64,000 nt of DNA from Picrophilus oshimae DSM 9789 (GCF_900176435.1 NZ_FWYE01000002.1:186001-250000), one strand, 5' to 3'. Positions 42,372-55,025 are shown, counted from the first letter of the stretch. Notes: a model not told the origin generated them from the sequence alone. Numbers and translations are program-made.

Positions 42372-43241
42372 TTAAAATTTTACAAGAATTAACATTATGC
42401 CTATTAAAAGCATTAGCATGTACATATTTGAAAAATGAAATGCCTTTTTAAAGTCCTTTTTGTTGTAATTGTTTATCATTGGCCTGGCCACGTAGTATAT
42501 TAACAATGCATCCATTACCGCTGCCATTGGCATGTATAGCAGGCCAACGTGTATTTCCTTTATGAATAGCGGTAAAATTGAGTATATAACCAGTATCGAT
42601 GTGTTTACCATTATCCAGAATTCTGTTCTTTTTATGCCAACAACTGCCGGTAGCATTGGTATATTTGATTTTTTGTAATCATCAACGTTGTTTACTGATA
42701 AATTCCAGAAGTGCGTTGGTGTCCACATGAAGACAAGAAAGGCTATAAAAAGAGATGTTGCTGATACTGAACCTGTTATGGATGCCCAGCCAGCCAGTGC
42801 TGGAAAGCTCCCTGCTATACCGCCTATAACAATATTTAAGGATGTTCTTCTTTTCAATATTATTGTGTATAAAAGAACATAGCTTGCAAAGCCTCCAAGT
42901 ATAAAGGCGGATGTAACAGGATTTAATAAAATAAAACTTGTTACAAATGATAATAAGACCATGGCTGTGGCAATTATAAAGAACAATGATCTTGTATTTG
43001 CATTTAGTATCTGAGACCTTGATGATGTTCTTTTCATCTTTGGGTCTATATCCATATCATATATGTTATTAAATATGCTTGCAGACATGGATGCAAGTGT
43101 TCCAGCAAATATTAATATTAAAAGGTCGTAGATATGATTGGTGCTGCCTGGAACTGCCAGAAAGGCGGCTATGGCAACGATATCGATTAAAATCGTTATT
43201 TCAAGCTTTGTTATCTTCATTATCTGTGATGCCATGGACAT
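42372..43241 (-). CDS. ctaB: Protoheme IX farnesyltransferase (CtaB/Cox10)
   Basis: 289-aa UbiA-family prenyltransferase that makes heme O from heme B for the terminal oxidase. N-N-I-Y-D-M-D-I-D-P-K-M-K-R-T near 62-76 is the Asp-rich prenyl-diphosphate site; a second motif N-V-D-D-Y-K-K-S-N-I-P-M near 178-189 completes it. About eight to nine membrane helices. SD GGTGAT lies upstream of ATG 43241. It is the last gene of the oxidase operon, next to subunit II. Confidence 0.9.
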   Translation of the reverse strand: MSMASQIMKITKLEITILIDIVAIAAFLAVPGSTNHIYDLLILIFAGTLASMSASIFNNIYDMDIDPKMKRTSSRSQILNANTRSLFFIIATAMVLLSFVTSFILLNPVTSAFILGGFASYVLLYTIILKRRTSLNIVIGGIAGSFPALAGWASITGSVSATSLFIAFLVFMWTPTHFWNLSVNNVDDYKKSNIPMLPAVVGIKRTEFWIMVNTSILVIYSILPLFIKEIHVGLLYMPMAAVMDALLIYYVARPMINNYNKKDFKKAFHFSNMYMLMLLIGIMLILVKF

Positions 43242-43282
43242 TGTAAATCACCTAAGATTTTTATATAAAAATAAAAAATTAT

Positions 43283-44101
43283 TTAATCACCGGCAGATGG
43301 CGGTGTGGGTGTTATTCCACCGTCGTATCTGTTGCCACCATATGACTGGCATATGCCAAAGAAATCAAATGTCTGGTTCATCTCACCAGGCTTCTGCTTT
43401 GATTCCCACTGCTCCCACTGCTTTAATGGTATTACTGCAACAGGGCCCCTCATGTGTGCATGGCCGAGACCGCAGAGCTCAACGCACTCAAAGTAGTAAA
43501 GACCGGGCGTTGTTATATTGGTCCATATGAAATTATAATGACCTGGGAATGCATCGACCTTTGTTACATTAATTAGATAGAACGAATGCATGACATCAAC
43601 ACTGGTAACATTGAACTGTATTGGCGTATCTGCTGGAAGCACTGCGAAGTGCCTTGTTGATGAACCATTTGGATATATAAATATCCACTGCCACTGGTAG
43701 CCTATGACATCTATATACATGTAATGATGGTTATCTGTCGGTGCGCTTGGAGCTGCTCCGGCAACCCTGACGCCGTATGCCGGTGGCAGATCGTAGACCA
43801 TTAATGATAGCAGGATTAATACAACAAAGAGCACAAACACCTTAAACAGTGTTTTATTGCCGCGCTCTATTGCCTCTATTCTGCCAGGCCTCATATCATC
43901 CTCATGTTCCTCTGGTTTTTTCTTTATATGATCCCAGTTCCTTATGAATACATAGATGTACCAGAAGGCAAAGCCTGCGCCTATGACAATTCCGGGCAGT
44001 ATATATGCCAGGAATATTGATGTGATTAAATCACCGCTTATTGATCCCTTTGGTATTAGGTGATATACATCCGGGGTTATACCTAATATTAAACCACTCA
44101 T
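43283..44101 (-). CDS. coxB: Cytochrome c oxidase subunit II (CuA-containing)
   Basis: 272 aa. Two N-terminal membrane helices (about 24-52 and 85-105) and a C-terminal cupredoxin domain. Y-Q-W-Q-W (135-139) is the electron-entry aromatic patch. The CuA ligands are H172 and C206-x3-C210-x3-H214-x2-M217. An N-terminal D/E-rich loop lies between the helices. It receives electrons from a small donor, probably sulfocyanin encoded just upstream, and passes them to subunit I. SD GAGGTGA precedes ATG 44101. Confidence 0.93.
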   Translation of the reverse strand: MSGLILGITPDVYHLIPKGSISGDLITSIFLAYILPGIVIGAGFAFWYIYVFIRNWDHIKKKPEEHEDDMRPGRIEAIERGNKTLFKVFVLFVVLILLSLMVYDLPPAYGVRVAGAAPSAPTDNHHYMYIDVIGYQWQWIFIYPNGSSTRHFAVLPADTPIQFNVTSVDVMHSFYLINVTKVDAFPGHYNFIWTNITTPGLYYFECVELCGLGHAHMRGPVAVIPLKQWEQWESKQKPGEMNQTFDFFGICQSYGGNRYDGGITPTPPSAGD

Positions 44102-44110
44102 TTTTTCACC

Positions 44111-44722
44111 TCATTTTATTGTATAATATGGCTTTGTTATTGATGAGCTGACTATTACATATATGTACATACCTGCCTCAGCGTGTGTTGTTAATCCACA
44201 GACAAGCCAGTATTTACCTGGTTCCGTATTGTTCCACCATATTGACCTTGAATGTGCGGTATTTCCATACCATATAGGTAAAACAACTCCTGTGCTGTTT
44301 ATAACCTTCTGCACATGAACACTTGTATGGGCCCATATTGGACCACGCGCCCACTGTGATGGATATGGTAACTCTATTTTAAGTGTGTGCGGCTTAACCT
44401 CATAATCTGTTAATGTTAGCTTTACGTTTATGTGCGCCGGCAGATATATTGTCATGGCACCATATGATGTTCCATTAAAGTTAAATGGGTATGCATTTGA
44501 ATGGCCATTGCCAACGCCCCAGTTGCATAAATGTATATATGCGGTTGGAACAGAGCTGTTTTTATTATAGGCTATGTAACCATTTGAAACCTTCTGGCCA
44601 TCGGACATAACGGTATTCATCGGGTGATATAATGCAACTGTAAGTGCAAATGCCGCTATCAATACTATGGCGACAATCAGTACTGCTATTGCAGCCTTTT
44701 TTACATTGCTTATGAGAACCAC
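44111..44722 (-). CDS. Sulfocyanin-like blue copper protein
   Basis: N-terminal membrane anchor (about residues 37-58 of the longest frame) and a cupredoxin domain. Copper ligands: H140, C203, H208 and M213 (C-G-L-T-T-H-A-E-A-G-M), numbered from the longest frame. Sulfocyanin is the usual electron carrier of archaeal aa3-type oxidases. The start is uncertain. The longest frame begins at ATG 44806 within the upstream gene; the GTG at 44722 abuts the SD block GGGGAG; an ATA at 44713 lies at SD distance and would give M-S-N-V-K-K before the anchor. I give the GTG as a conservative limit. Confidence 0.85.
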   Translation of the reverse strand: MVLISNVKKAAIAVLIVAIVLIAAFALTVALYHPMNTVMSDGQKVSNGYIAYNKNSSVPTAYIHLCNWGVGNGHSNAYPFNFNGTSYGAMTIYLPAHINVKLTLTDYEVKPHTLKIELPYPSQWARGPIWAHTSVHVQKVINSTGVVLPIWYGNTAHSRSIWWNNTEPGKYWLVCGLTTHAEAGMYIYVIVSSSITKPYYTIK

Positions 44723-44931
44723 CTCCCCATAAAGACGTTCATGAAGAGCCAGAGCGAGAACCATATTGCTATGATTATAATTGCCATGGCATATGGATTC
44801 TTCCATATGCCAATTTCTCTGTACTCTATGTCATCCTCGTCAAGATATTCGTCTATGTTCTCCTCGACGTATTTTACATTCTCTATCTTTTTATTTACAT
44901 TCTCAACATTCATATTGTTATTCTCTGTCAT
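44710..44931 (-). CDS. Small acidic membrane protein of the oxidase operon
   Basis: 73 aa with an acidic N-terminal part (E-N-I-D-E-Y-L-D-E-D-D), one membrane segment at about 48-66 and a short polar end (F-M-G-R-W-F-S). It lies between the fused subunit I/III and sulfocyanin, overlapping the latter's frame. SD GAGGTGAT stands before ATG 44931. It is probably a small structural subunit of the oxidase, comparable in place to small Sox subunits; family not recognised. Confidence 0.75.
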   Translation of the reverse strand: MTENNNMNVENVNKKIENVKYVEENIDEYLDEDDIEYREIGIWKNPYAMAIIIIAIWFSLWLFMNVFMGRWFS

Positions 44932-44940
44932 TTTATCACC

Positions 44941-47466
44941 TCAAACAAATATATATCCTATGCCTGTAAACACAGCCGTAAGAAATATCATTGCAAGGAA
45001 CCACATTGCTATGTCTATGCCTGTTGCCGTTCTGCCCCAGAGAACCCTGTCGCGTTTTGTTACCTGAAGTGCATACTTTACAAGAACTGCAACTATGCCT
45101 ATCATGAAGGCTATCTGTATGAATGTTATTATATAGTACATTGCTGAAACAGGGTTGTTATGAACTGATGAGAAGTTTACTGATGTATATGGCCCAAGAT
45201 ACAGTAATGATAATATAGTTGTTATTATGAATATTATCGATAGTATTATTGATATAACCATGTTTGTTCCGCTCTTTGTTCTGCTCTTTGATATTGCACC
45301 CCTTAGGGACATCCAGGCGAAGAGTGCCGCAAGGCCTATCGCTATTATTGATATTATTAAGTATATCGTTGATGTTGACGGGAAGAACCATGTAACAGGA
45401 TCTGGTGAATAACCGCCTGAAACATAAGGTGATACAGACTGTAATTTTAACCATTCAACGACACCGAACATTGTGGCAATGAATATCATGTTTCCTGCAA
45501 GGAACATTAGCATGCCAAGCCTCATGTTGTTTAGACCCTTCATAACCGGCTCGTCCTTGAATGTTGGTGATATTGTTGGAACCTTTATCTTGTAGTCATC
45601 GTATAACCAGCCTACTCCACCCCAGGCAAATACTGCTATGCCAACGGCTATTATTACGAATCCGAGGTATCTATATAACGTGCCAAATGCGTATGGTGGA
45701 TAGCCCATTAATGCAACGACTGCACCAAATATGCCTATGAATGAACCTATTGTTAATAACAGTGGTCTTGATGATAGCAATGGCTTCTCTATCTTTGTTG
45801 GCTTGTTCTTGTCTAAAAGCAGATCCCTCATATCACTGCCGCCAACATATGGCTCATAATCAAAGTTGTAGTATTTGGGCGGGTTTGATGTAAACCATAC
45901 AAAACCTGCGCTTGCTCTGTATGGATTATCATCCTTGAGTTTTTCTCCATACTTTAATGACCATGCAAAGTTGGCAAACATTATCAGGAATGATAAACCG
46001 AATATGAATGCACCAGCGGTTGCTATCTCATTGAATATTGTGTAACCGAAGCCTGACTGATATGTATATACCCTTCTTGGCAGATCATACAGGAAGAACA
46101 TCGGGAAGTATAGTATATTCACTCCTGGATATGCAAATGCCCAGTGGATTCTGCCAAGCTTTTCACTGTACATTCTTCCAGTAAACTTTGGGAAGTAATA
46201 GTATAGATTGCCCATTAATCCCATTACCGCGACTCCGACCATGAAGTAGTGGAAGTGTGCAACCACATAGTAATCTCCATGGACTATTGTATCTATTGCC
46301 AGCGATGACTGTGTAACTCCAGAAACACCGCCTATCATAAAGGACGTTGATGCGGCCAGAGCGAATAGTATCGGTGTCTGGAATTTGTGCCTGCCGCCTA
46401 TCATTGTTGCTATCAAACCGACTATAAGCATGGATGTTGGTATTGATATCGTTTCAGTGAATATGCTATCTGCCATTAACCATGCAAAGACTATACCGGT
46501 CATGAATGTGTGGTGCAGGAAAACCATGACACTATCAACGGATATTGCACCCATTGCAGCTATCATCCATTTCTTAAGATATGGTGGCCTGTGGTTTAGA
46601 TTTGATAAATAATCGAACATTGCCCCTGTTCCAGGTAATAGCAATAGGTAAACCTCTGGATGGCCAAAGTACCAGAACAGGTTTTCCCACATTAATGCAC
46701 CACCATAGTTTGATATATAGTATGATGCATGCATTAGGTTTCCAACCAGTAACAGGAAGAATAAACCTGTTATCTCAGGGAATACAAACCAGGATATTGC
46801 AGCAACCCAGAAGACAGCCCATACAAATAATGGTAAGTTCATCATTCTGTAGCCTTTTGCCCTGGCCTTGAATATTGTTGCAAGTATCTCCGTTGAGGCT
46901 ATTATTGTACCGATACCTCTTAAAACAACTGCTGCGGCAGCTGTGTCAGCCCCAAGATATGGTGTGAATTTAAATGAGCTTAATGGCTCATAGACTGTCC
47001 AGCCTGTATCAAGGTTTCCACCAGGTAAGAAGAATCCAGACCATAGCATGATACCGCTGAAAAGGAAAAGCCAGTAACCAAGAGCATTCATTCTTGGATA
47101 TATCATATCCCTGGATCCTATAGCCAGCGGTATTAAATATATACCAAAACCTGTACCTAGAGGCCCAAGAAACCATATAAGCATGGTTAATCCGTGTATT
47201 GTAACCAGCTGATTGTACTGAAGTGCATCGAGAAATCTTCCTGAAAAGATGCTGTATTTCACAAGATCATATCTTGGTATCGCAAGCTGCACCCTCATGA
47301 GCAGTGCCATTACACCGCCGCCTATGAAGAAGAACAGAGAGGTAAGTATGTAAAGAAGGCCTATCTGCTTGTGGTTTGTTGTAAAGATCCAGCCCTTCAC
47401 TGAATTATAGATACGGTTGTATTCCTCATACTTACCGTTCGGATTTTCAGAAGTTTCCATACTCAT
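44941..47466 (-). CDS. Terminal oxidase subunit I fused to subunit III-like domain
   Basis: 841 aa. The subunit I part (about 1-560) has T-I-H-G near 89-92 (heme a His), G-H-P-E-V-Y near 270-275 (CuB His cross-linked to Tyr), H-H-T near 320 (CuB His pair), and H-F-H-Y near 405-408 (heme a3 and heme a ligands). The C-terminal part (about 600-841) has several further helices of the subunit III type. This I+III fusion is known in the archaeal SoxM complex. The first gene of a minus-strand operon with the small subunit, sulfocyanin, subunit II and ctaB. A regulatory palindrome lies 30 bp upstream of ATG 47466. Confidence 0.93.
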   Translation of the reverse strand: MSMETSENPNGKYEEYNRIYNSVKGWIFTTNHKQIGLLYILTSLFFFIGGGVMALLMRVQLAIPRYDLVKYSIFSGRFLDALQYNQLVTIHGLTMLIWFLGPLGTGFGIYLIPLAIGSRDMIYPRMNALGYWLFLFSGIMLWSGFFLPGGNLDTGWTVYEPLSSFKFTPYLGADTAAAAVVLRGIGTIIASTEILATIFKARAKGYRMMNLPLFVWAVFWVAAISWFVFPEITGLFFLLLVGNLMHASYYISNYGGALMWENLFWYFGHPEVYLLLLPGTGAMFDYLSNLNHRPPYLKKWMIAAMGAISVDSVMVFLHHTFMTGIVFAWLMADSIFTETISIPTSMLIVGLIATMIGGRHKFQTPILFALAASTSFMIGGVSGVTQSSLAIDTIVHGDYYVVAHFHYFMVGVAVMGLMGNLYYYFPKFTGRMYSEKLGRIHWAFAYPGVNILYFPMFFLYDLPRRVYTYQSGFGYTIFNEIATAGAFIFGLSFLIMFANFAWSLKYGEKLKDDNPYRASAGFVWFTSNPPKYYNFDYEPYVGGSDMRDLLLDKNKPTKIEKPLLSSRPLLLTIGSFIGIFGAVVALMGYPPYAFGTLYRYLGFVIIAVGIAVFAWGGVGWLYDDYKIKVPTISPTFKDEPVMKGLNNMRLGMLMFLAGNMIFIATMFGVVEWLKLQSVSPYVSGGYSPDPVTWFFPSTSTIYLIISIIAIGLAALFAWMSLRGAISKSRTKSGTNMVISIILSIIFIITTILSLLYLGPYTSVNFSSVHNNPVSAMYYIITFIQIAFMIGIVAVLVKYALQVTKRDRVLWGRTATGIDIAMWFLAMIFLTAVFTGIGYIFV

Positions 47467-47790
47467 TTAATTTCATATTAATACTTTAATGTAATTGTAG
47501 AAAATATTCTATTTTTAACATTTTTAACAAAATTCGAAGATATTGTAATATATTAATACATATAATTAATGAATATAAATATTTTATATCGTTTTAATTT
47601 ATTTAATAAACTATTTCTGAATAAATTATATATATTTATTTTTAAACGATTCATACTTTTATAAGATAACCGGTGAAATTAACGATTTCAAAAATTGAAT
47701 AATTATTTAAAAGATGATAATTTAATATCATTAATTGAAGGATTTAGAAATTAATAATAATTAAATATTAATTTTATATAATCTAATAAA
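47467..47790. other. AT-rich region with divergent promoters
   Basis: About 320 bp between the oxidase operon (minus strand) and a DUF929 gene (plus strand). Contains the TGTAGAA-type palindrome at 47496-47513 on the oxidase side and many TATA-like stretches. No RNA gene or ORF worth calling. Confidence 0.6.
47496..47513. promoter_or_regulatory. Palindrome upstream of the oxidase operon
   Basis: TGTAGAA-AATA-TTCTATT. The left arm is identical to the arms at 55008 and (inverted) 53260; the right arm differs in the last two bases. It lies directly upstream of the TATA-like ATTAAAG (about 47484-47493, minus strand) and 30 bp before ATG 47466. Likely a transcription-factor site. Confidence 0.6.
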
Positions 47791-48543
47791 ATGGCAAATA
47801 TCAATTATAAACTCCTCGTGTTGTTCATAGCCGTTTTTGTTGTGATAGCGTTTTTTGCTGTGGATTATGACCTTTACCATGCATCTAAACCAGAGTGCAT
47901 TGAGATAAACAACTACTGCAAGGTCTCGGATAATGATCTTCTAAAAAATGGTTCCAATGCAATATATTTTATAACATGGGATAAAAGCCCAATAGGTGCG
48001 GCAGACTCCTGGGCCATGTATGAACTATTGCTAAGACATGGCATTAACATAAATAATCCATACTTTGATAATTCAACCTCACTCTTACAGTGGCCTGGAA
48101 CGCCGGCACTGATATTTAATTCAAGTTACACATTTACATACGATAAGATAAAGGTTGAATTTTATCCTGAGTACATTTACAATGATATATCGAATAATAG
48201 CAATTGCATAAGTTCAGGGTTAAACAGGTTAAAGTCCATGGTTCCTGAATCAATATACAATGTTGTAAAGACATATACAACAGATGTACTTATTTCAGGA
48301 ACACATTACACAAGTGCAAATTTCAGTGCAATACCGCATATAAACACGGTAATAATTATAACAGGGAAATATGGTTCTTACATATACAATGGATACATAA
48401 TAGATCCGGATGATTTTATAAACAGCACATCACATTCCACTTATTCTCCGGAATATGTATTTAATCTCACAAGAAACAATGATTTTGAGGCAGCAAATGT
48501 TGCAACGGCAAGCATACAAAGTTATCTGGCAAAAGTAATTTAA
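47791..48543 (+). CDS. DUF929-family membrane-anchored protein, second copy
   Basis: 250 aa, paralogue of the protein at 5688-6554. N-terminal membrane segment (about 8-25), then the extracytoplasmic domain with Y-F-I-T-W-D-K-S-P-I-G-A-A-D-S-W near 59-74. The Cys of the first copy's W-Y-G-C-P is Ser here. It has an extra Cys pair near 36 and 43 (P-E-C-I-E ... N-Y-C-K). Located divergent from the oxidase operon, suggesting an envelope function for this copy, but the role of the family is unknown to me. Confidence 0.75.
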   Translation: MANINYKLLVLFIAVFVVIAFFAVDYDLYHASKPECIEINNYCKVSDNDLLKNGSNAIYFITWDKSPIGAADSWAMYELLLRHGININNPYFDNSTSLLQWPGTPALIFNSSYTFTYDKIKVEFYPEYIYNDISNNSNCISSGLNRLKSMVPESIYNVVKTYTTDVLISGTHYTSANFSAIPHINTVIIITGKYGSYIYNGYIIDPDDFINSTSHSTYSPEYVFNLTRNNDFEAANVATASIQSYLAKVI

Positions 48544-48556
48544 TTTTTTTATAGAT

Positions 48557-48739
48557 TTAAGCACTCTTCTTTTTTCTGGTTAATATCACAAGTGCAGTAA
48601 CAAAGCCTATGCCAACAAGCAGCATCACAACGTCTACAGCATAACCAGCCTGATAAAAGCTGCTTATAATGCTGCCCGTACTTAGCATAACTGGCAAAAA
48701 GCCGAGACTGAACATTTTATTAACATTTTTTGAAGCCAT
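48557..48739 (-). CDS. Small membrane protein (60 aa)
   Basis: Basic N-terminal M-A-S-K-N-V-N-K, two hydrophobic segments (about 11-27 and 34-54) and a Lys-rich end. Its position between respiratory genes, an AT-rich TATA-like upstream and clean termini support a real gene. Family unknown; it might be an oxidase-associated small subunit. Confidence 0.55.
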   Translation of the reverse strand: MASKNVNKMFSLGFLPVMLSTGSIISSFYQAGYAVDVVMLLVGIGFVTALVILTRKKKSA

Positions 48740-48848
48740 GAGATTATATTATTTAAAAATATTTAAATTTTGTTTTTTTGTATCATAAACATTCATAATG
48801 TAATAAAAAATATTTATATAGAATAGAAATATATTATATCTGGTGAGT

Positions 48849-49061
48849 ATGGACAGGCTATCAGAATTAATGATTGGTATGGGATTTCTCTTTGCTGGCG
48901 CTGTACTTTTATTCCTTGGGATCTATAACCAGCTTTATCCAAAAATAATCATTGAGATGCTGGGTGCTGCGATCTTTATAATAGGTCTTGGCATAACATC
49001 AGTGCTCGTTGTCATATGGGGCACACCACAGAGGCCAAAAAACAGGGGTTATTCAAATTAA
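48849..49061 (+). CDS. Small two-helix membrane protein (70 aa)
   Basis: Start ATG 48849 is preceded by GGTGAG (48842-48847). The frame is open to GTG 48843. Two hydrophobic segments (about 10-28 and 36-56) and a polar C-terminus G-T-P-Q-R-P-K-N-R. Converges with the MFS gene two bases downstream. Family unknown. Confidence 0.6.
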   Translation: MDRLSELMIGMGFLFAGAVLLFLGIYNQLYPKIIIEMLGAAIFIIGLGITSVLVVIWGTPQRPKNRGYSN

Positions 49062-49063
49062 AT

Positions 49064-50239
49064 TTATGGATTTTTTTTATATATCTCCCTGAAGCCGGTT
49101 GTTTTATAGAGCACAATTATTGAGATCATTATAAATAATGATATTGTTATTGAAATATAGTCAATGTTCTTTATATTTATATTCACCGAGATCAATCCAG
49201 GTATAAGACCGCCAAAAAAGACACCGGCATGCTGCATTGATGTGTAAAAGCCAAGGTTTCCACCGTATGAGTCCCTTGAGGCAAGCCTTGTTATTAAGGT
49301 TGGAAAGACGATCTCACTTATTATATAACCTGTGTAAAATGCAAACACACCGAGTATAAAAACAATGTTATTATTCATAAAATAATCCAGATAGAAATAT
49401 ACAGGTGCACTGATCAAAAGTATTATTAACGATATTAGTGAAAAACGTACTGTTTTATCCCTGTCAGCCGGTTCTGCAAGGCCAACGCCTATAATGCCAG
49501 CAACAACCACAACTGGTATAAGAAACTCATAAAAATTGCTTACTTTATAGTACCTTGTGGCCAGGAATGGAAGATAAAAATAGAATGTAATCATATATAA
49601 ATATATAAAAAAGCTTATAAACGATATTAATGCCAGTCTACCAGGTATCCGTGATTTTAAAGGTTTTTTATTATATTTTGATCCTTCATGAACAAGGCTC
49701 ACAGGAACTGCCGATATTATTCCAAGTATGGAGGCTATTAAAAATACATATGAGTAGCCAATAAATGATGCAAGAACCGGACCTATAAGAACGCCAAGCA
49801 TAAATGACGCGCCAATGCCTATACCTATTAATGCGTCTGAAACGTTTCTTGTATTTTCAGGTACATTTTCATGAATTAGTGCTATTCCTGCGGCGCTCAC
49901 AGAGCCAATACCCTCAAGAAGTCTTCCAGTTATCAAACCGTATATATTATCTGGAAATGCGCATATTAGATTTCCTATTATAAAAGTGGCTATACCCATG
50001 TATATTACATTTTTTCTGCCTATTTTATCTGATAGCATGCCAAATGGCGTCTGGGACAGTGCCATTGTTATACCATATGCGCCAAGGGCAATGCCCGATA
50101 GCAAAAGTGATGATGTAAATTTATGGCTGTAAATGGAAAAAATTGGAAGAACAAGAAAAAGCCCCATTGTTCTGAGGCCAATTGTTGTTGTTACAAGACC
50201 TATTGTTCTTCTCTGTGATTTATTAAATTTTCGCATCAT
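49064..50239 (-). CDS. MFS transporter (drug/multidrug type)
   Basis: 391-aa MFS protein with about 12 hydrophobic segments and motif A G-M-L-S-D-K-I-G-R-K near 62-71. P-F-G-M-L-S-D and R-L-L-E-G-I-G-S near 107-114 are also typical. Last gene of a minus-strand operon after the ctaA-like gene (one-base gap). An export role for an inhibitor, copper or heme intermediate is possible, but the sequence does not show it. Confidence 0.82.
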   Translation of the reverse strand: MMRKFNKSQRRTIGLVTTTIGLRTMGLFLVLPIFSIYSHKFTSSLLLSGIALGAYGITMALSQTPFGMLSDKIGRKNVIYMGIATFIIGNLICAFPDNIYGLITGRLLEGIGSVSAAGIALIHENVPENTRNVSDALIGIGIGASFMLGVLIGPVLASFIGYSYVFLIASILGIISAVPVSLVHEGSKYNKKPLKSRIPGRLALISFISFFIYLYMITFYFYLPFLATRYYKVSNFYEFLIPVVVVAGIIGVGLAEPADRDKTVRFSLISLIILLISAPVYFYLDYFMNNNIVFILGVFAFYTGYIISEIVFPTLITRLASRDSYGGNLGFYTSMQHAGVFFGGLIPGLISVNINIKNIDYISITISLFIMISIIVLYKTTGFREIYKKNP

Positions 50240-50240
50240 T

Positions 50241-51026
50241 TTAAATCACTTTGAACAGGCTCAGCTGGAAGAATATTGATATCACTATTAGTATTGTCAT
50301 TGTCTGATGTAATGGTACTATAAAGCCTGGTCTTGCAGCATTTTTATTAACAAAGATAAACACCATTATCCCAACAAGTATTTGAATTGCAAGTATAAGT
50401 ATTGCAACGTTGTAATTATAGAAATATATCGATAGTATTATTATAAACAATAAGACGCTTATTCCATGCAATGTCCATATGTACTGTGATTTTGTCTTTG
50501 GAAATTTAAAGTAACCTATTGGTTTCTGGAAGCCGCGCTGGCCTGTTGTCATACCGCCCATGAATATTACAAGGAAGAAGAAGTATATTGGTATTGTATT
50601 TAATATAAATGATCCAAGATTTGAATAGTATCCTGTAAACCCTATTAAATATGTAAGCGCTGTTGAGTAAGCAAGTATATCATGAAGACCCTGAACCACG
50701 GATGGCGCCTTTCCTGCCAGTGTGTAAAGCGTGGCCATGCCAAGCAGGGCTGTTCCAACTATTAATACAAAGCCCGTTATTGTAACTATATCAAAGTGAA
50801 GAATAAGAAGTGCAAGAGAGTTTAGGCCAAGCAGTGTTGCAAGTATCCTGTGCCATACCTCTGGGTCTCCTGTCTTTGCCTTTTCAGGCATATCCCTTGT
50901 GTATGGCCAGTTTGTCCCAAGGGACAGGCCATAGCCGTATCCCTCAACGGTACCGCCAACGATAATTATCATAAAGGCAAGAACGGTTTGAAACAAAAAA
51001 TCATAATGTATTATATTTGATAACAT
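50241..51026 (-). CDS. ctaA: Heme A synthase-like membrane protein (CtaA/Cox15 family)
   Basis: 261 aa, about seven to eight hydrophobic segments. Heme-ligand-like His occur in E-V-W-H-R-I-L-A near 56-63, G-L-H-D-I-L-A near 112-118, L-H-G near 189 and P-L-H-Q-T near 239-243, in agreement with the CtaA pattern of paired His in two homologous halves. Converts heme O to heme A. Coupled to the upstream ferredoxin-like gene through a GAGGTG SD. The family match is by motif pattern only. Confidence 0.7.
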   Translation of the reverse strand: MLSNIIHYDFLFQTVLAFMIIIVGGTVEGYGYGLSLGTNWPYTRDMPEKAKTGDPEVWHRILATLLGLNSLALLILHFDIVTITGFVLIVGTALLGMATLYTLAGKAPSVVQGLHDILAYSTALTYLIGFTGYYSNLGSFILNTIPIYFFFLVIFMGGMTTGQRGFQKPIGYFKFPKTKSQYIWTLHGISVLLFIIILSIYFYNYNVAILILAIQILVGIMVFIFVNKNAARPGFIVPLHQTMTILIVISIFFQLSLFKVI

Positions 51027-51035
51027 ATTAACACC

Positions 51036-53222
51036 TCATTTAAATCCAGCCTTCACATCTTCCTGTGATGCATGTGTTGATTTTAATATTTTCTCTTTTA
51101 TGAACGTTCTAAAATCATAAAAGTATATATTATTGTAAGGGCAGGCACGTATGCAATCACCGGAGCCGACGCATTTTGAACTCTTAAAGTATCCATTTTT
51201 TATAAATTCTCCGGGCATCTCTGCAAGCCCAGTCTCACATGATACGGCGCAGGCCTTTGTCTCACATGTTTTGCATAGATTTTTATCATGAACCTTTAAT
51301 TTAAAGAATCCCAGGTAGCTAAACAATCCTACAAACGTTCCTGTACTGCAGAATCCATAACGCCTGCACGGACTCATTCCGGTGAAAGGTATTGATATAA
51401 AGAATGCATAGAATAGTATATCCCAGAAAACTATTACATATAGATACGCCGGGTCTATTCCATAAAAGCTAAATCCAAGACTGCCTGTTCTCATGTAATA
51501 ATATGAAAATATGGAGCCAAATATGGCAAACACCCATGACACTGAGATTACAGGATAAAGATAGTCCTGGAACTTCTTACCAATGGTCTTTCTGCTAATC
51601 CTTGATTCATAATTATAGGGTATCATTGCCTGGGCTATGCTGCTACCGTACATTATTGTGTATGGACATAGTGTTGAACAGTATGCTCTTCTACCAAATA
51701 GAGAGGCAAGAATGGCATAGAGCACGTATGATCCAATCAATGGTATAACAAGGTATGGATATATACCAGCCTCGTATCCGGTTGTTGGCCATAACGGTAA
51801 TAGATTATACCATGCAGGATTCAAAAAGTTTGGGCCAAGTACTGTGTAAATTGCATATGCGGCCAGTGCAATACCAAGGTTTACCCTTTTGCCAAGATCC
51901 TTTATCTTTTTCATCTGGAATATTACAAGTGCACCCATTTCAAGGCCTGTTATAATAAGAAACTCGGGTGAGTTTATTATCTCGCCTACAAGGTATATAC
52001 CTGCAAGGAAGTATGAAAACGGATTCTTAAAAACGTATATTCCACCAAAGCGTACAAGGTAAAATATAGAAAAATTTGATACCCCGTAGTTTGCCGGAAC
52101 ATAAACATGATAAAAAAGCTTTGAAAAGGCATATATGTACTTTGAATTTACAAAATAAAGCGAGTAATCTCTATATGTGTTATAAATATCAAAATATGGC
52201 TTGAAATTAAATATTGAAAAATTCATGGATGCTGCCAGAAGCCATTCCGATAAAAATGAAAGTAAAAGAACAAGGGCCATAAATGGTCTTGTGTCCTTCA
52301 ATGCATATTTTTTTATTACTACATGTTTCTGAACCAATGCAGAGCTTATGCTCTCACGGAATATACTGTCAAAATAATAGTACATGCCAAAGATTATGGC
52401 CATTGCGAGCAGAATCCATGCCAGTCCAAACGGTCTAAGCACAATTGACCCAACAAATGTACCTGCGGCCATTAAAAAATAATCTATAAAAACCATTCTT
52501 ATGTGATGCGCATCATCCCTTGGTAGAAGCATTTTATGATCTGCTATGTACTCAAGTGTGATTATCATAAATATTATCATTATAATGGTTTCGCCAAGTA
52601 TACCTATAAATATAAACTGATTATTTCCGAGAAGTGTTGGTGAGAACATATCCATAAGAAAGATTGATATCGATGCGTATTTATGCATCCTCTTTGGTTT
52701 ATAAACAAAGAAGATTACAATCATCTCCACGCTCATGGGTATTAAAAAATAGAATGTGTTTATGCCATAGCTTAATGGCGTTACAAATGCAAGTGAGTAA
52801 AGTAAATGATAATAATCAAAGTTTACTATTGTAGGATTGAAAAGGTAATAAAGGAATATACCCATTGAAACCTCGTTCCATATTAAAAGAAATGTAAAAC
52901 CCTCACCGATGCCCCTTGTTAAGCCCTTTCTTCCTATACCACCATGGATAACTGCTATAAATGTTGCCACCAGGGGCTGTGTCATTAATGCCATGCCTAT
53001 TGCAAATGATAGTATGGTATCAAGCATGCCACGTTTTGTTGTTATGTAAAATGTAATTGAGTTTAGCATGCTTGCCATCATCGCTGTAAATATTCCTATT
53101 GCTGCAACCTTTGCAAATGAAACAACATATCTATATTTAACTATGTATGAGAAAACGACTGTAACATATAAGGTCATCAGTACTGCTGTAAGCAGACCGA
53201 TGATAAAAGTTACCTCATTCAT
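51036..53222 (-). CDS. Large polytopic membrane protein with C-terminal 4Fe-4S domain (NapH/CcoG-like)
   Basis: 728 aa. The N-terminal two thirds (about 1-480) have more than ten hydrophobic segments. The C-terminal part has C-S-T-L-C-P-Y and C-R-R-Y-G-F-C, as in NapH/NosR/CcoG-type membrane ferredoxins, followed by two ferredoxin-like Cys clusters: C-K-T-C-E-T-K-A-C-A-V-S-C and C-V-G-S-G-D-C-I-R-A-C-P near the end. It could pass electrons across or within the membrane for oxidase or copper-site assembly. First gene of an operon with ctaA and an MFS gene; ATG 53222 lies 38 bp from the divergent palindrome. Confidence 0.72.
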   Translation of the reverse strand: MNEVTFIIGLLTAVLMTLYVTVVFSYIVKYRYVVSFAKVAAIGIFTAMMASMLNSITFYITTKRGMLDTILSFAIGMALMTQPLVATFIAVIHGGIGRKGLTRGIGEGFTFLLIWNEVSMGIFLYYLFNPTIVNFDYYHLLYSLAFVTPLSYGINTFYFLIPMSVEMIVIFFVYKPKRMHKYASISIFLMDMFSPTLLGNNQFIFIGILGETIIMIIFMIITLEYIADHKMLLPRDDAHHIRMVFIDYFLMAAGTFVGSIVLRPFGLAWILLAMAIIFGMYYYFDSIFRESISSALVQKHVVIKKYALKDTRPFMALVLLLSFLSEWLLAASMNFSIFNFKPYFDIYNTYRDYSLYFVNSKYIYAFSKLFYHVYVPANYGVSNFSIFYLVRFGGIYVFKNPFSYFLAGIYLVGEIINSPEFLIITGLEMGALVIFQMKKIKDLGKRVNLGIALAAYAIYTVLGPNFLNPAWYNLLPLWPTTGYEAGIYPYLVIPLIGSYVLYAILASLFGRRAYCSTLCPYTIMYGSSIAQAMIPYNYESRISRKTIGKKFQDYLYPVISVSWVFAIFGSIFSYYYMRTGSLGFSFYGIDPAYLYVIVFWDILFYAFFISIPFTGMSPCRRYGFCSTGTFVGLFSYLGFFKLKVHDKNLCKTCETKACAVSCETGLAEMPGEFIKNGYFKSSKCVGSGDCIRACPYNNIYFYDFRTFIKEKILKSTHASQEDVKAGFK

Positions 53223-53259
53223 AACAATATGTAATTTTGATCATTGTTTTATAATTAAT

Positions 53260-53277
53260 TATAGAACATTTTCTACA
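53260..53277. promoter_or_regulatory. Palindrome between divergent respiratory promoters
   Basis: TATAGAA-CATT-TTCTACA, equivalent to TGTAGAA-AATG-TTCTATA on the other strand. It is placed symmetrically: 38 bp before ATG 53222 (minus) and 37 bp before ATG 53314 (plus), with TATA-like elements on both sides (about 53247-53256 and 53282-53290). Confidence 0.6.
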
Positions 53278-53313
53278 ATTAGATTTATTATGCAATGTTA
53301 AATTGGAAATTGA

Positions 53314-54807
53314 ATGAAAAGAGACGTTATAGACAGTATAATAATCTCGGTTTTCACGTTATATTTATTTATATATTCAATGTACTCAGGTATAATATAT
53401 ATTTTCAGCAACAGTTTATACCCTGCTGAGTATCAATCATTCTTTGTTTTTATACCTTACATAATGCTTCCATTGCTATCAATATGGAAAAATAATAAAA
53501 TGATTGAGCGCGTCTATGTATATTTCATGTTTCTTGGATTTGTATCTTTTATTATACTTTTAACAACATATATATATGAACCAATGCTGGAGATACTCGA
53601 TATTGTTATTATAGCATTCTATACAGATGTTCTAGATCAGTACTTCCAGAATAATAGAAATCTCTTCTACCGTGGTGTAACATTCGTTGCGATCTTCTTT
53701 ATTATGTTTTCAATAGCAAGGTTCTTTGTCTATGTTCCGGCAACGGATCCAAGCAGGATAGTTATAGATTCAATATATGCAGATTATGCAAGATCACAGG
53801 TCCCATTCTTTTTCTATTATGGAATAATTATAAGGATAGCATATATAAATATAACAACATCGATCCAGGCAATAATATTATATATTGTTCTTTCAGTACT
53901 TCTTGCCGAGAACTATTTCCTGATCTTTGGTATTGTTAAGGGAAATTCAACGGCGTCTATGATAAATCCAACACTTACAGGCGGAATATCCGCATTAAGC
54001 TGCCAGTGCGAGGGACTTACGGCAACGCTGCCAACAGTTGCAGCCGTTGTTGCCAGTGTTATATCCGAGGCCCTTTTAACAGAGAGCATAGTACTTTTAA
54101 TAATGAGCAATATAATATTAAATATATTCCTGAATAAAAGGTCAAGAATAACACTGGTATCAAGTGTAAAGAATATAAGGGATAGCAACATTTTTCCAGT
54201 GCTTGCACTGTTCTTTGTTCTTGTATTCCCTGTGGCGGAAACCATAGGAATAATTTTTAAACTTGAAAAAACATCGATGCTGTTCTTCTTTGGCATGAAC
54301 CTTTTAACATTTATATCAGGCATATTTTTAATATACGGTATTTACAGAATAGGAATTAATATAAAAATAAGCAACATTGTTAACAAGGGTATATACATAT
54401 TCATCGCATCATTTATAATGTTTATATGGTTCATACCCGGAATGGCATTATATGCATACACAGATTATGGCATTTTTATTTTAATGAACATTATTTCATT
54501 GATATCTGGAATAATAACATACATAGTTTATATTAACATTGAAGAACTTAAAAGGGCATACGTTGAATTTATATCAATGATGTTCAGCATGACAGGCCTT
54601 GTTATATTTTATATATCAACAATATCAAAGATTACAATATATCCTGAATTCGGAATTGCACAGCAGCTATACTTCGCTGCAATGCTCTGGGCCGTATCGT
54701 TACCATTCATGTGGTTAAGCACCATAGATACAATGTACATGTATTCAATACCAAGGGATGCAATTAAAAATAAAAATAAATCAAATAAAACAGTGGTTTC
54801 AGATTAA
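53314..54807 (+). CDS. Polytopic membrane protein of unknown function
   Basis: 497 aa with about 13 hydrophobic segments. A motif S-C-Q-C-E-G near 229-234 and a central Gly/Ala/Ser-rich helix stand out. I do not recognise the family. Divergent from the ferredoxin-like membrane protein and sharing its palindrome, so possibly co-regulated for oxidase assembly, metal handling or heme transport. The start ATG 53314 is about 27 nt after a TATA-like element. Confidence 0.7.
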   Translation: MKRDVIDSIIISVFTLYLFIYSMYSGIIYIFSNSLYPAEYQSFFVFIPYIMLPLLSIWKNNKMIERVYVYFMFLGFVSFIILLTTYIYEPMLEILDIVIIAFYTDVLDQYFQNNRNLFYRGVTFVAIFFIMFSIARFFVYVPATDPSRIVIDSIYADYARSQVPFFFYYGIIIRIAYINITTSIQAIILYIVLSVLLAENYFLIFGIVKGNSTASMINPTLTGGISALSCQCEGLTATLPTVAAVVASVISEALLTESIVLLIMSNIILNIFLNKRSRITLVSSVKNIRDSNIFPVLALFFVLVFPVAETIGIIFKLEKTSMLFFFGMNLLTFISGIFLIYGIYRIGINIKISNIVNKGIYIFIASFIMFIWFIPGMALYAYTDYGIFILMNIISLISGIITYIVYINIEELKRAYVEFISMMFSMTGLVIFYISTISKITIYPEFGIAQQLYFAAMLWAVSLPFMWLSTIDTMYMYSIPRDAIKNKNKSNKTVVSD

Positions 54808-54818
54808 TTTATAAAAAT

Positions 54819-54971
54819 TTATTTTCTCATTATAAACTCCTTTACCATGATTGTTGCACCGATTGCCACCAGGGCACAAACCGCAACGGATACCTCTATG
54901 AACAGTGTGGCCGTGTTTGGATTGTATGCTGCTGGATGCAAGGTCAGGAAGTTTAATATCTGTGTAAGCAT
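54819..54971 (-). CDS. 50-aa membrane peptide in the respiratory cluster
   Basis: ATG 54971 to TAA 54819-54821. The N-terminus M-L-T-Q-I-L-N-F-L-T-L-H-P is followed by one hydrophobic segment (about 25-42, rich in Val and Ala, with one Cys) and a basic end. A TATA-like ATTTATAGTT (about 54991-55001) lies 25 nt before the start, with the perfect palindrome copy just beyond. Shares this promoter plan with the oxidase genes, so it may be a very small oxidase subunit or assembly peptide. It has no recognisable family. Confidence 0.6.
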   Translation of the reverse strand: MLTQILNFLTLHPAAYNPNTATLFIEVSVAVCALVAIGATIMVKEFIMRK

Positions 54972-55007
54972 GTTATTAAAAATAATACATAACTATAAAT
55001 AAGTTAT

Positions 55008-55025
55008 TGTAGAAGATGTTCTACA
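55008..55025. promoter_or_regulatory. Perfect palindrome upstream of the 50-aa gene
   Basis: TGTAGAA-GATG-TTCTACA, seven-base arms with four-base spacer, no mismatch. 37 bp before ATG 54971 (minus strand), immediately upstream of its TATA box. hisC begins 44 bp away on the other side, so control of hisC cannot be excluded. Confidence 0.65.

Follow-up and report, generated by a model that had tools for sequence, protein, structure and literature searches.

A putative dyad operator common to respiratory promoters of Picrophilus oshimae and related genera

An 18 bp dyad, TRTAGAA-N4-TTCTAYA, is found at respiratory promoters in a 64,000 bp stretch of DNA from Picrophilus oshimae DSM 9789 (G000:C2:186001-250000, part of a 1.53 Mb genome). 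The whole of this stretch is termed the window, and positions are counted from its first letter. Judged from sequence and conservation, the dyad is very probably the operator for the small regulon of one sequence-specific regulator. Its status as an operator is well supported. The predicted regulon consists of the oxidase/sulfocyanin operon headed by coxI, the fer728-ctaA-MFS operon, and the genes for two membrane proteins, p497 and a 50-amino-acid peptide; in the genus Picrophilus, fer649 is added. The bound regulator is probably dimeric. The best overall explanation, held with moderate confidence, joins the dyad operator to a regulator of the HTH_10 family that would act by activation.

The dyad and its rarity in the genome

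Three copies of the dyad lie in the window.

47496-47513, minus strand: putative operator dyad 1, coxI promoter; TGTAGAAAATATTCTATT; two mismatches, both in the right arm
53260-53277, no strand assigned: putative operator dyad 2, divergent fer728/p497 promoter; TATAGAACATTTTCTACA; one mismatch
55008-55025, minus strand: putative operator dyad 3, promoter of the 50-amino-acid membrane peptide; TGTAGAAGATGTTCTACA; perfect palindrome

The original prediction, made from the window sequence, had described three 18 bp palindromes, and all three were found, with the mismatches as described. Read towards coxI, dyad 1 is AATAGAATATTTTCTACA, and the same position is occupied in 12 orthologous coxI promoters. 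The three dyads are the top three matches in the window to a site matrix that was built with them included. The genes proposed to be controlled (coxI, fer728, p497 and the 50-amino-acid gene) are each preceded by a dyad that is in register and conserved in relatives. The set of four promoters proved incomplete, however, as a fourth site outside the window adds a fifth promoter, that of fer649.

A pattern search of the whole genome yields two exact copies, one copy with one mismatch and three with two mismatches. Exact copies are absent from all 12 runs of an order-3 Markov simulation (size-matched genomes, with 129 kb of this genome as training sequence), and copies with at most one mismatch average 0.17, versus two and three, respectively, in the real genome. 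The earlier claim that the copies do not arise by chance is borne out at this level. At three mismatches there is no enrichment in the window (seven matches versus 4.3 expected), and a loose search genome-wide is likewise at or below background; it is therefore the near-perfect copies that carry the case. Many copies at random positions would have counted against the original prediction, and no such scatter is seen. The word is an inverted repeat common to several promoters and rare elsewhere: the 1.53 Mb contain just four strong copies, every one preceding respiratory or membrane genes. Two-mismatch sites on C3 and C4 were rejected as promoter sites: one is within an MFS coding region and the other is at the 3′ end of an open reading frame of 166 amino acids.

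The fourth strong copy, a perfect one, is in the fer649 promoter between dhs and fer649 (C2:282628-282645), 32 kb outside the window, and is kept in a relative of the same genus (G001). The 649-amino-acid fer649 product is a paralogue of fer728 (28.7% identity over 684 amino acids, E=3e-68). That fer649 was found by a search blind to gene content is the strongest independent sign of a functional word.

In a profile search (26-site profile, 12 genomes), the four sites of this genome have E values of 2.5e-6 to 9e-4, and the next best match is at 0.107. Because the profile was trained with the known sites included, these scores are not independent, and what is informative is the absence of other comparable sites. 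The same promoters top the ranking in Ferroplasma and Acidiplasma, and no match better than 0.07 is found in three family genomes that do not have the cluster. Weak matches in G000, G010, G026 and G019 (E 0.014-0.11) were discarded; these are in coding sequence or have no matching gene layout. An extra site in G075 (C15:40019), 34 bp before the gene for a 246-amino-acid membrane protein, may represent a lineage-specific member of the regulon.

Conservation in related genera

The sites are kept in orthologous promoters while the flanks diverge, and the comparison across relatives that had been recommended as a check thus favours an operator. All 12 of the 12 close coxI orthologues (72-98% identity, three genera) display the block GAA-N4-TTCTAYAA(T/A)TA and a TATA-like box, with 34-35 bp to the ATG, and the remainder of the 200 bp has diverged around this block. 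The more distant coxI of G009 is without the dyad. The divergent fer728/p497 pair is kept in G001 and in two further genera, Acidiplasma and Ferroplasma included, and the dyad is conserved in six of the six fer728/p497 intergenic regions compared. Upstream of the 50-amino-acid gene, the dyad is retained at similar spacing in Ferroplasma and Acidiplasma; in two species its outer arms have changed and it is again a perfect palindrome, TAGTGAATATATTCACTA. With respect to symmetry, 76.9% of cells pair when the arms are in true register, versus at most 55.5% when they are slid, and a G and a C at symmetric positions are invariant.

These invariant residues bear on the possibility that the block is an unusual, strong core-promoter element, an extended upstream part of the transcription factor B recognition element (BRE) and TATA box, and that no dedicated regulator exists. 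The segment is AT-rich and adjoins the TATA box, and in the coxI promoters conservation is highest in its proximal half, TTCTAYAATTA. This possibility is nevertheless very improbable, both because of the symmetric G and C and because no other promoter in the genome has the block at comparable strength; unrelated core promoters would have it too.

Register, core promoter and direction of control

The dyad-to-ATG gap is 35 bp for coxI, 37 bp for fer728, 36 bp for p497, 36 bp for the 50-amino-acid gene and 35 bp for fer649. For coxI it is counted from the conserved start at 47460; from the start given by the ORF (open reading frame) finder, 47466, it is 29 bp. Taken over the regulated promoters, the gap is constant at 34-37 bp, with TATA boxes and start sites that are inferred. 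The approximate spacing given originally (30-38 bp, next to the TATA box) is thereby narrowed to 35-37 bp at the five Picrophilus promoters, where the dyad abuts a TATA-like box, and dyad 2 is indeed placed for both genes of the divergent pair.

Two genes on the far sides of these sites, hisC at the 55008 dyad (gap of 43 bp) and dhs at the fer649 site (44 bp), are out of register and for this reason are probably not targets. Control of dhs by the dyad system may occur, since an extra half-site, TTCTACA, is found 13 bp on from the putative fer649 operator, beside the dhs TATA-like box (L016:6629-6680), and is kept in G001.

After the dyad come ATTA or ATAA and a TATA-like box, the centre of which is about 9-10 nt downstream. 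The putative boxes in the window are as follows.

47482-47491, minus strand: putative TATA region of the coxI promoter, placed from position; CTTATAT in most relatives
53247-53256, minus strand: putative TATA box of the fer728 promoter, AATTATAAAA
53282-53289, plus strand: putative TATA box of the p497 promoter, ATTTATTA region
54994-55003, minus strand: putative TATA box of the 50-amino-acid gene promoter, CTTATTTATA

With leaderless transcripts, the TATA-like box would be at about -26, and the dyad would span about -36 to -53, next to the BRE. The original prediction had left a choice between an activator and a BRE-region repressor, responding perhaps to oxygen, copper or haem. In the mechanism proposed, a dimeric HTH_10 protein would occupy the dyad, against BRE/TATA and ∼36-53 bp ahead of a start that is presumably leaderless, and would help TBP/TFB to bind, as is thought for HTH_10 activators at haloarchaeal upstream activator sequences. 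Activation is fairly likely, since neither the TATA box nor the start is covered by the dyad, the register hardly varies, and Bat, the prototype of the HTH_10 proteins, is an activator of bop. A repressor at the same operator, which would block TFB/TBP at the BRE when the oxidase is not needed, accords with the placement of the dyad: at each promoter it abuts the putative BRE/TATA, and a protein bound there could hinder TFB. It is an unlikely reading, as the TATA-like box and start region are not covered by the dyad, the nearly invariant register is better explained by contact with TFB/TBP, and Bat is described as an activator (PMC3184054).

An HTH_10 protein as candidate regulator

The regulator is rather likely to be the HTH_10 protein whose gene lies next to ctaA in Ferroplasma and Acidiplasma. 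This gene (PF04967, E=3e-11; protein of ∼208 amino acids) adjoins ctaA in nine clusters of these genera (L104-L111 and L114); in Ferroplasma acidarmanus it is found at L110:13011-13634. The C-terminal HTH_10 domain scores 43.3 bits versus a curated cut-off of 23.1, and that of the Picrophilus homologue scores 44.2 bits. The latter, at G000:C1:116292-116933 (36% identity, E=6e-48), is the one strong homologue in this genome and the only strong match to the subfamily. A homologue with 38% identity is present in G001. Its closest relatives (E of 1e-45 or better) occur only in the three genera that carry the dyad, and elsewhere the best E is 2e-9 or weaker. Two family genomes, G061 (96% complete) and G080 (91%), are without coxI, fer728, the dyads and the cluster-type HTH_10 gene, and both keep an HTH_10 paralogue, a pattern that agrees with a pairing of HTH_10 protein and dyad.

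The N-terminal part of the protein is predicted to form two beta-alpha-beta-beta-alpha-beta units, a tandem ferredoxin-like arrangement (mean predicted local distance difference test score, pLDDT, 76.5). Two cysteines, Cys12 and that of a Cys-Pro pair at alignment columns 87-88, do not vary across the subfamily, paralogues included, and in the predicted model each starts the first helix of its unit. A fold search with the protein gave no meaningful full-length match. It can be speculated that copper, haem or thiol redox state is read through these two cysteines. The full scheme, whereby an HTH_10 activator senses copper, haem or redox state via the two residues and through one operator switches on the genes for the oxidase, haem A synthesis and ferredoxin-linked assembly, is tentative and, as a whole, rather doubtful.

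Several observations weigh against the combination of dyad operator, HTH_10 regulator and activation. At the operator, the distal arm of the coxI sites of Ferroplasma and Acidiplasma has decayed to GAA, arm covariation does not exceed that of shuffles (the score is reached in 82 of 500), and the TATA boxes and leaderless starts are inferred. The losses in G061 and G080 could simply be the loss of one whole island, and the three dyad-bearing genera are related, so that the distributions are not independent. With respect to the regulator, the Picrophilus HTH_10 gene is unlinked to the cluster and its product shares only the 36% identity given above, the HTH_10 tree does not decide whether this protein is the orthologue of the cluster copy or of a paralogue, and no dyad was found upstream of the HTH_10 regulator genes.

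The lack of linkage in Picrophilus and of a dyad at the HTH_10 gene itself would also be expected if the same operator and regulon were served by a different, unlinked regulator, of the MarR, ArsR, Lrp, DtxR or TRASH type, and if the position of the HTH_10 gene next to ctaA were due to chance; linkage is the main argument for the HTH_10 protein. Such a regulator seems improbable, albeit far less so than a bare core-promoter element, given that the HTH_10 gene has stayed next to ctaA in nine Ferroplasma and Acidiplasma clusters, that its close relatives are confined to dyad-bearing genera, and that a scan of neighbouring genes, which did not include every open reading frame, turned up no other family of regulators. 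The HTH_10 protein is the best candidate.

Genes of the predicted regulon

The target genes in the window are listed below, together with one neighbouring gene.

44941-47466, minus strand: coxI-III fusion, terminal oxidase subunit and first gene of the oxidase operon (COX1 E=2.7e-107)
42372-44931, minus strand: downstream oxidase genes as a block
44710-44931, minus strand: membrane open reading frame of 73 amino acids between coxI and soxE
44111-44806, minus strand: sulfocyanin, soxE
43283-44101, minus strand: coxII
42372-43241, minus strand: UbiA-family protein, haem O synthase-like
51036-53222, minus strand: fer728, polytopic membrane protein with a C-terminal NapH/MauN-like ferredoxin part
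50241-51026, minus strand: ctaA/COX15-like haem A synthase, named so in the original prediction; the published map has COX15 in the cluster
49064-50239, minus strand: MFS transporter, third gene of the fer728 operon
53314-54807, plus strand: p497, polytopic membrane protein without known family, with an invariant SCQCEG motif
54819-54971, minus strand: single-span membrane peptide of 50 amino acids, with conserved AYNPN and IGA...K..R
47791-48543, plus strand: DUF929 protein gene, located directly behind the coxI promoter region in each of the three genera; no strong dyad of its own in the window

The target functions (oxidase subunits, sulfocyanin, haem O and haem A synthases and NapH-like ferredoxin proteins) fit a predicted role in oxidase assembly. 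The ctaA/COX15-like protein and p497 have no Pfam or NCBIfam match. In p497, the invariant LSCQCEGLTA-LPT motif suggests a metal or cofactor site; the predicted structure of the protein is poor (pLDDT 48). The 50-amino-acid peptide is conserved in the three genera, with a strand relative to p497 that differs between genera, and may be a small oxidase subunit.

Against TIGR02163 (NapH/MauN-like), fer728 gives E 2e-10 and 40.4 bits and fer649 gives E 7e-7 and 29 bits, with a cut-off of 213 bits. Since its score is below the cut-off, fer728 is classed as only a distant relative of the NapH/CcoG family. In many family genomes the N-terminal and ferredoxin halves are separate neighbouring genes, which in fer728 are fused into one protein, and fer649 is followed by a 285-amino-acid protein that resembles the N-terminal half of fer728 (L016:3766-6593).

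The 73-amino-acid open reading frame is conserved (54-64%) in relatives, though a passage of PMC12524180 states that Picrophilus torridus has no open reading frame there; this is probably an annotation gap. The soxE reading frame, with its start at 44806, overlaps the 73-amino-acid frame and may have been called too long. In Ferroplasma, a dyad-like word, TGTAGAATATATTAACCA, is present downstream of the MFS gene, before the gene for a 165-amino-acid membrane protein (L110:16300-16854), and also at five related loci.

Significance and comparison with known systems

In Ferroplasma, the sulfocyanin/aa3-type oxidase cluster provides the iron-oxidising chain, and bioleaching research is directed at it. 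Now that an operator is defined, the list of targets is closed and one protein stands as candidate, regulation of the oxidase can be tested directly. Two membrane proteins without a known role, p497 and the 50-amino-acid peptide, are tied to the oxidase by predicted shared control, and fer649 is suggested to be a further respiratory gene in Picrophilus.

The gene cluster itself has been published for Ferroplasma, Acidiplasma and Picrophilus, and in Picrophilus torridus it is on a genomic island (PMC12524180, PMC5473848). In Acidiplasma YE-1 its expression depends on substrate, being higher on sulfur than on ferrous iron and down on pyrite (PMC12524180, PMC5473848). The portions of these two papers that were available describe no operator, regulon or regulator of the cluster; the cluster is the same as that described there, and the predicted operator, regulon and regulator are what is new. 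In the literature searched, there is no earlier description of the dyad, operator or regulon, nor of a regulator of the oxidase cluster.

The fer728 and fer649 proteins resemble bacterial NapH/CcoG proteins in their NapH/MauN-like C-terminal ferredoxin membrane part, and differ from them in scores far under the cut-off and in an extra N-terminal membrane half. A role in copper or haem insertion is thus only putative for both.

The closest parallel in regulation is to Bat and the bop regulon. Bat carries an HTH_10 domain, and its sensor domains differ from the tandem ferredoxin-like type predicted for the candidate regulator. In the sections available, Bat is reported to activate haloarchaeal bop (PMC3184054), and an upstream activator sequence of the bop regulon is attributed to Baliga and DasSarma, 1999 (as cited in PMC2253796 and PMC3184054). 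The two systems are alike in the DNA-binding family of the candidate and in a short element upstream of the TATA box that is common to a few functionally linked promoters. They are unlike in the sequence of the element, in the sensor domains, and in the genes concerned: rhodopsin and carotenoid genes form the bop regulon, whereas respiratory oxidase genes, with predicted binding, are found here. The comparison is consistent with a new operator and regulon of a known kind at a cluster already known, and with the HTH_10 protein as a plausible candidate for its regulator.

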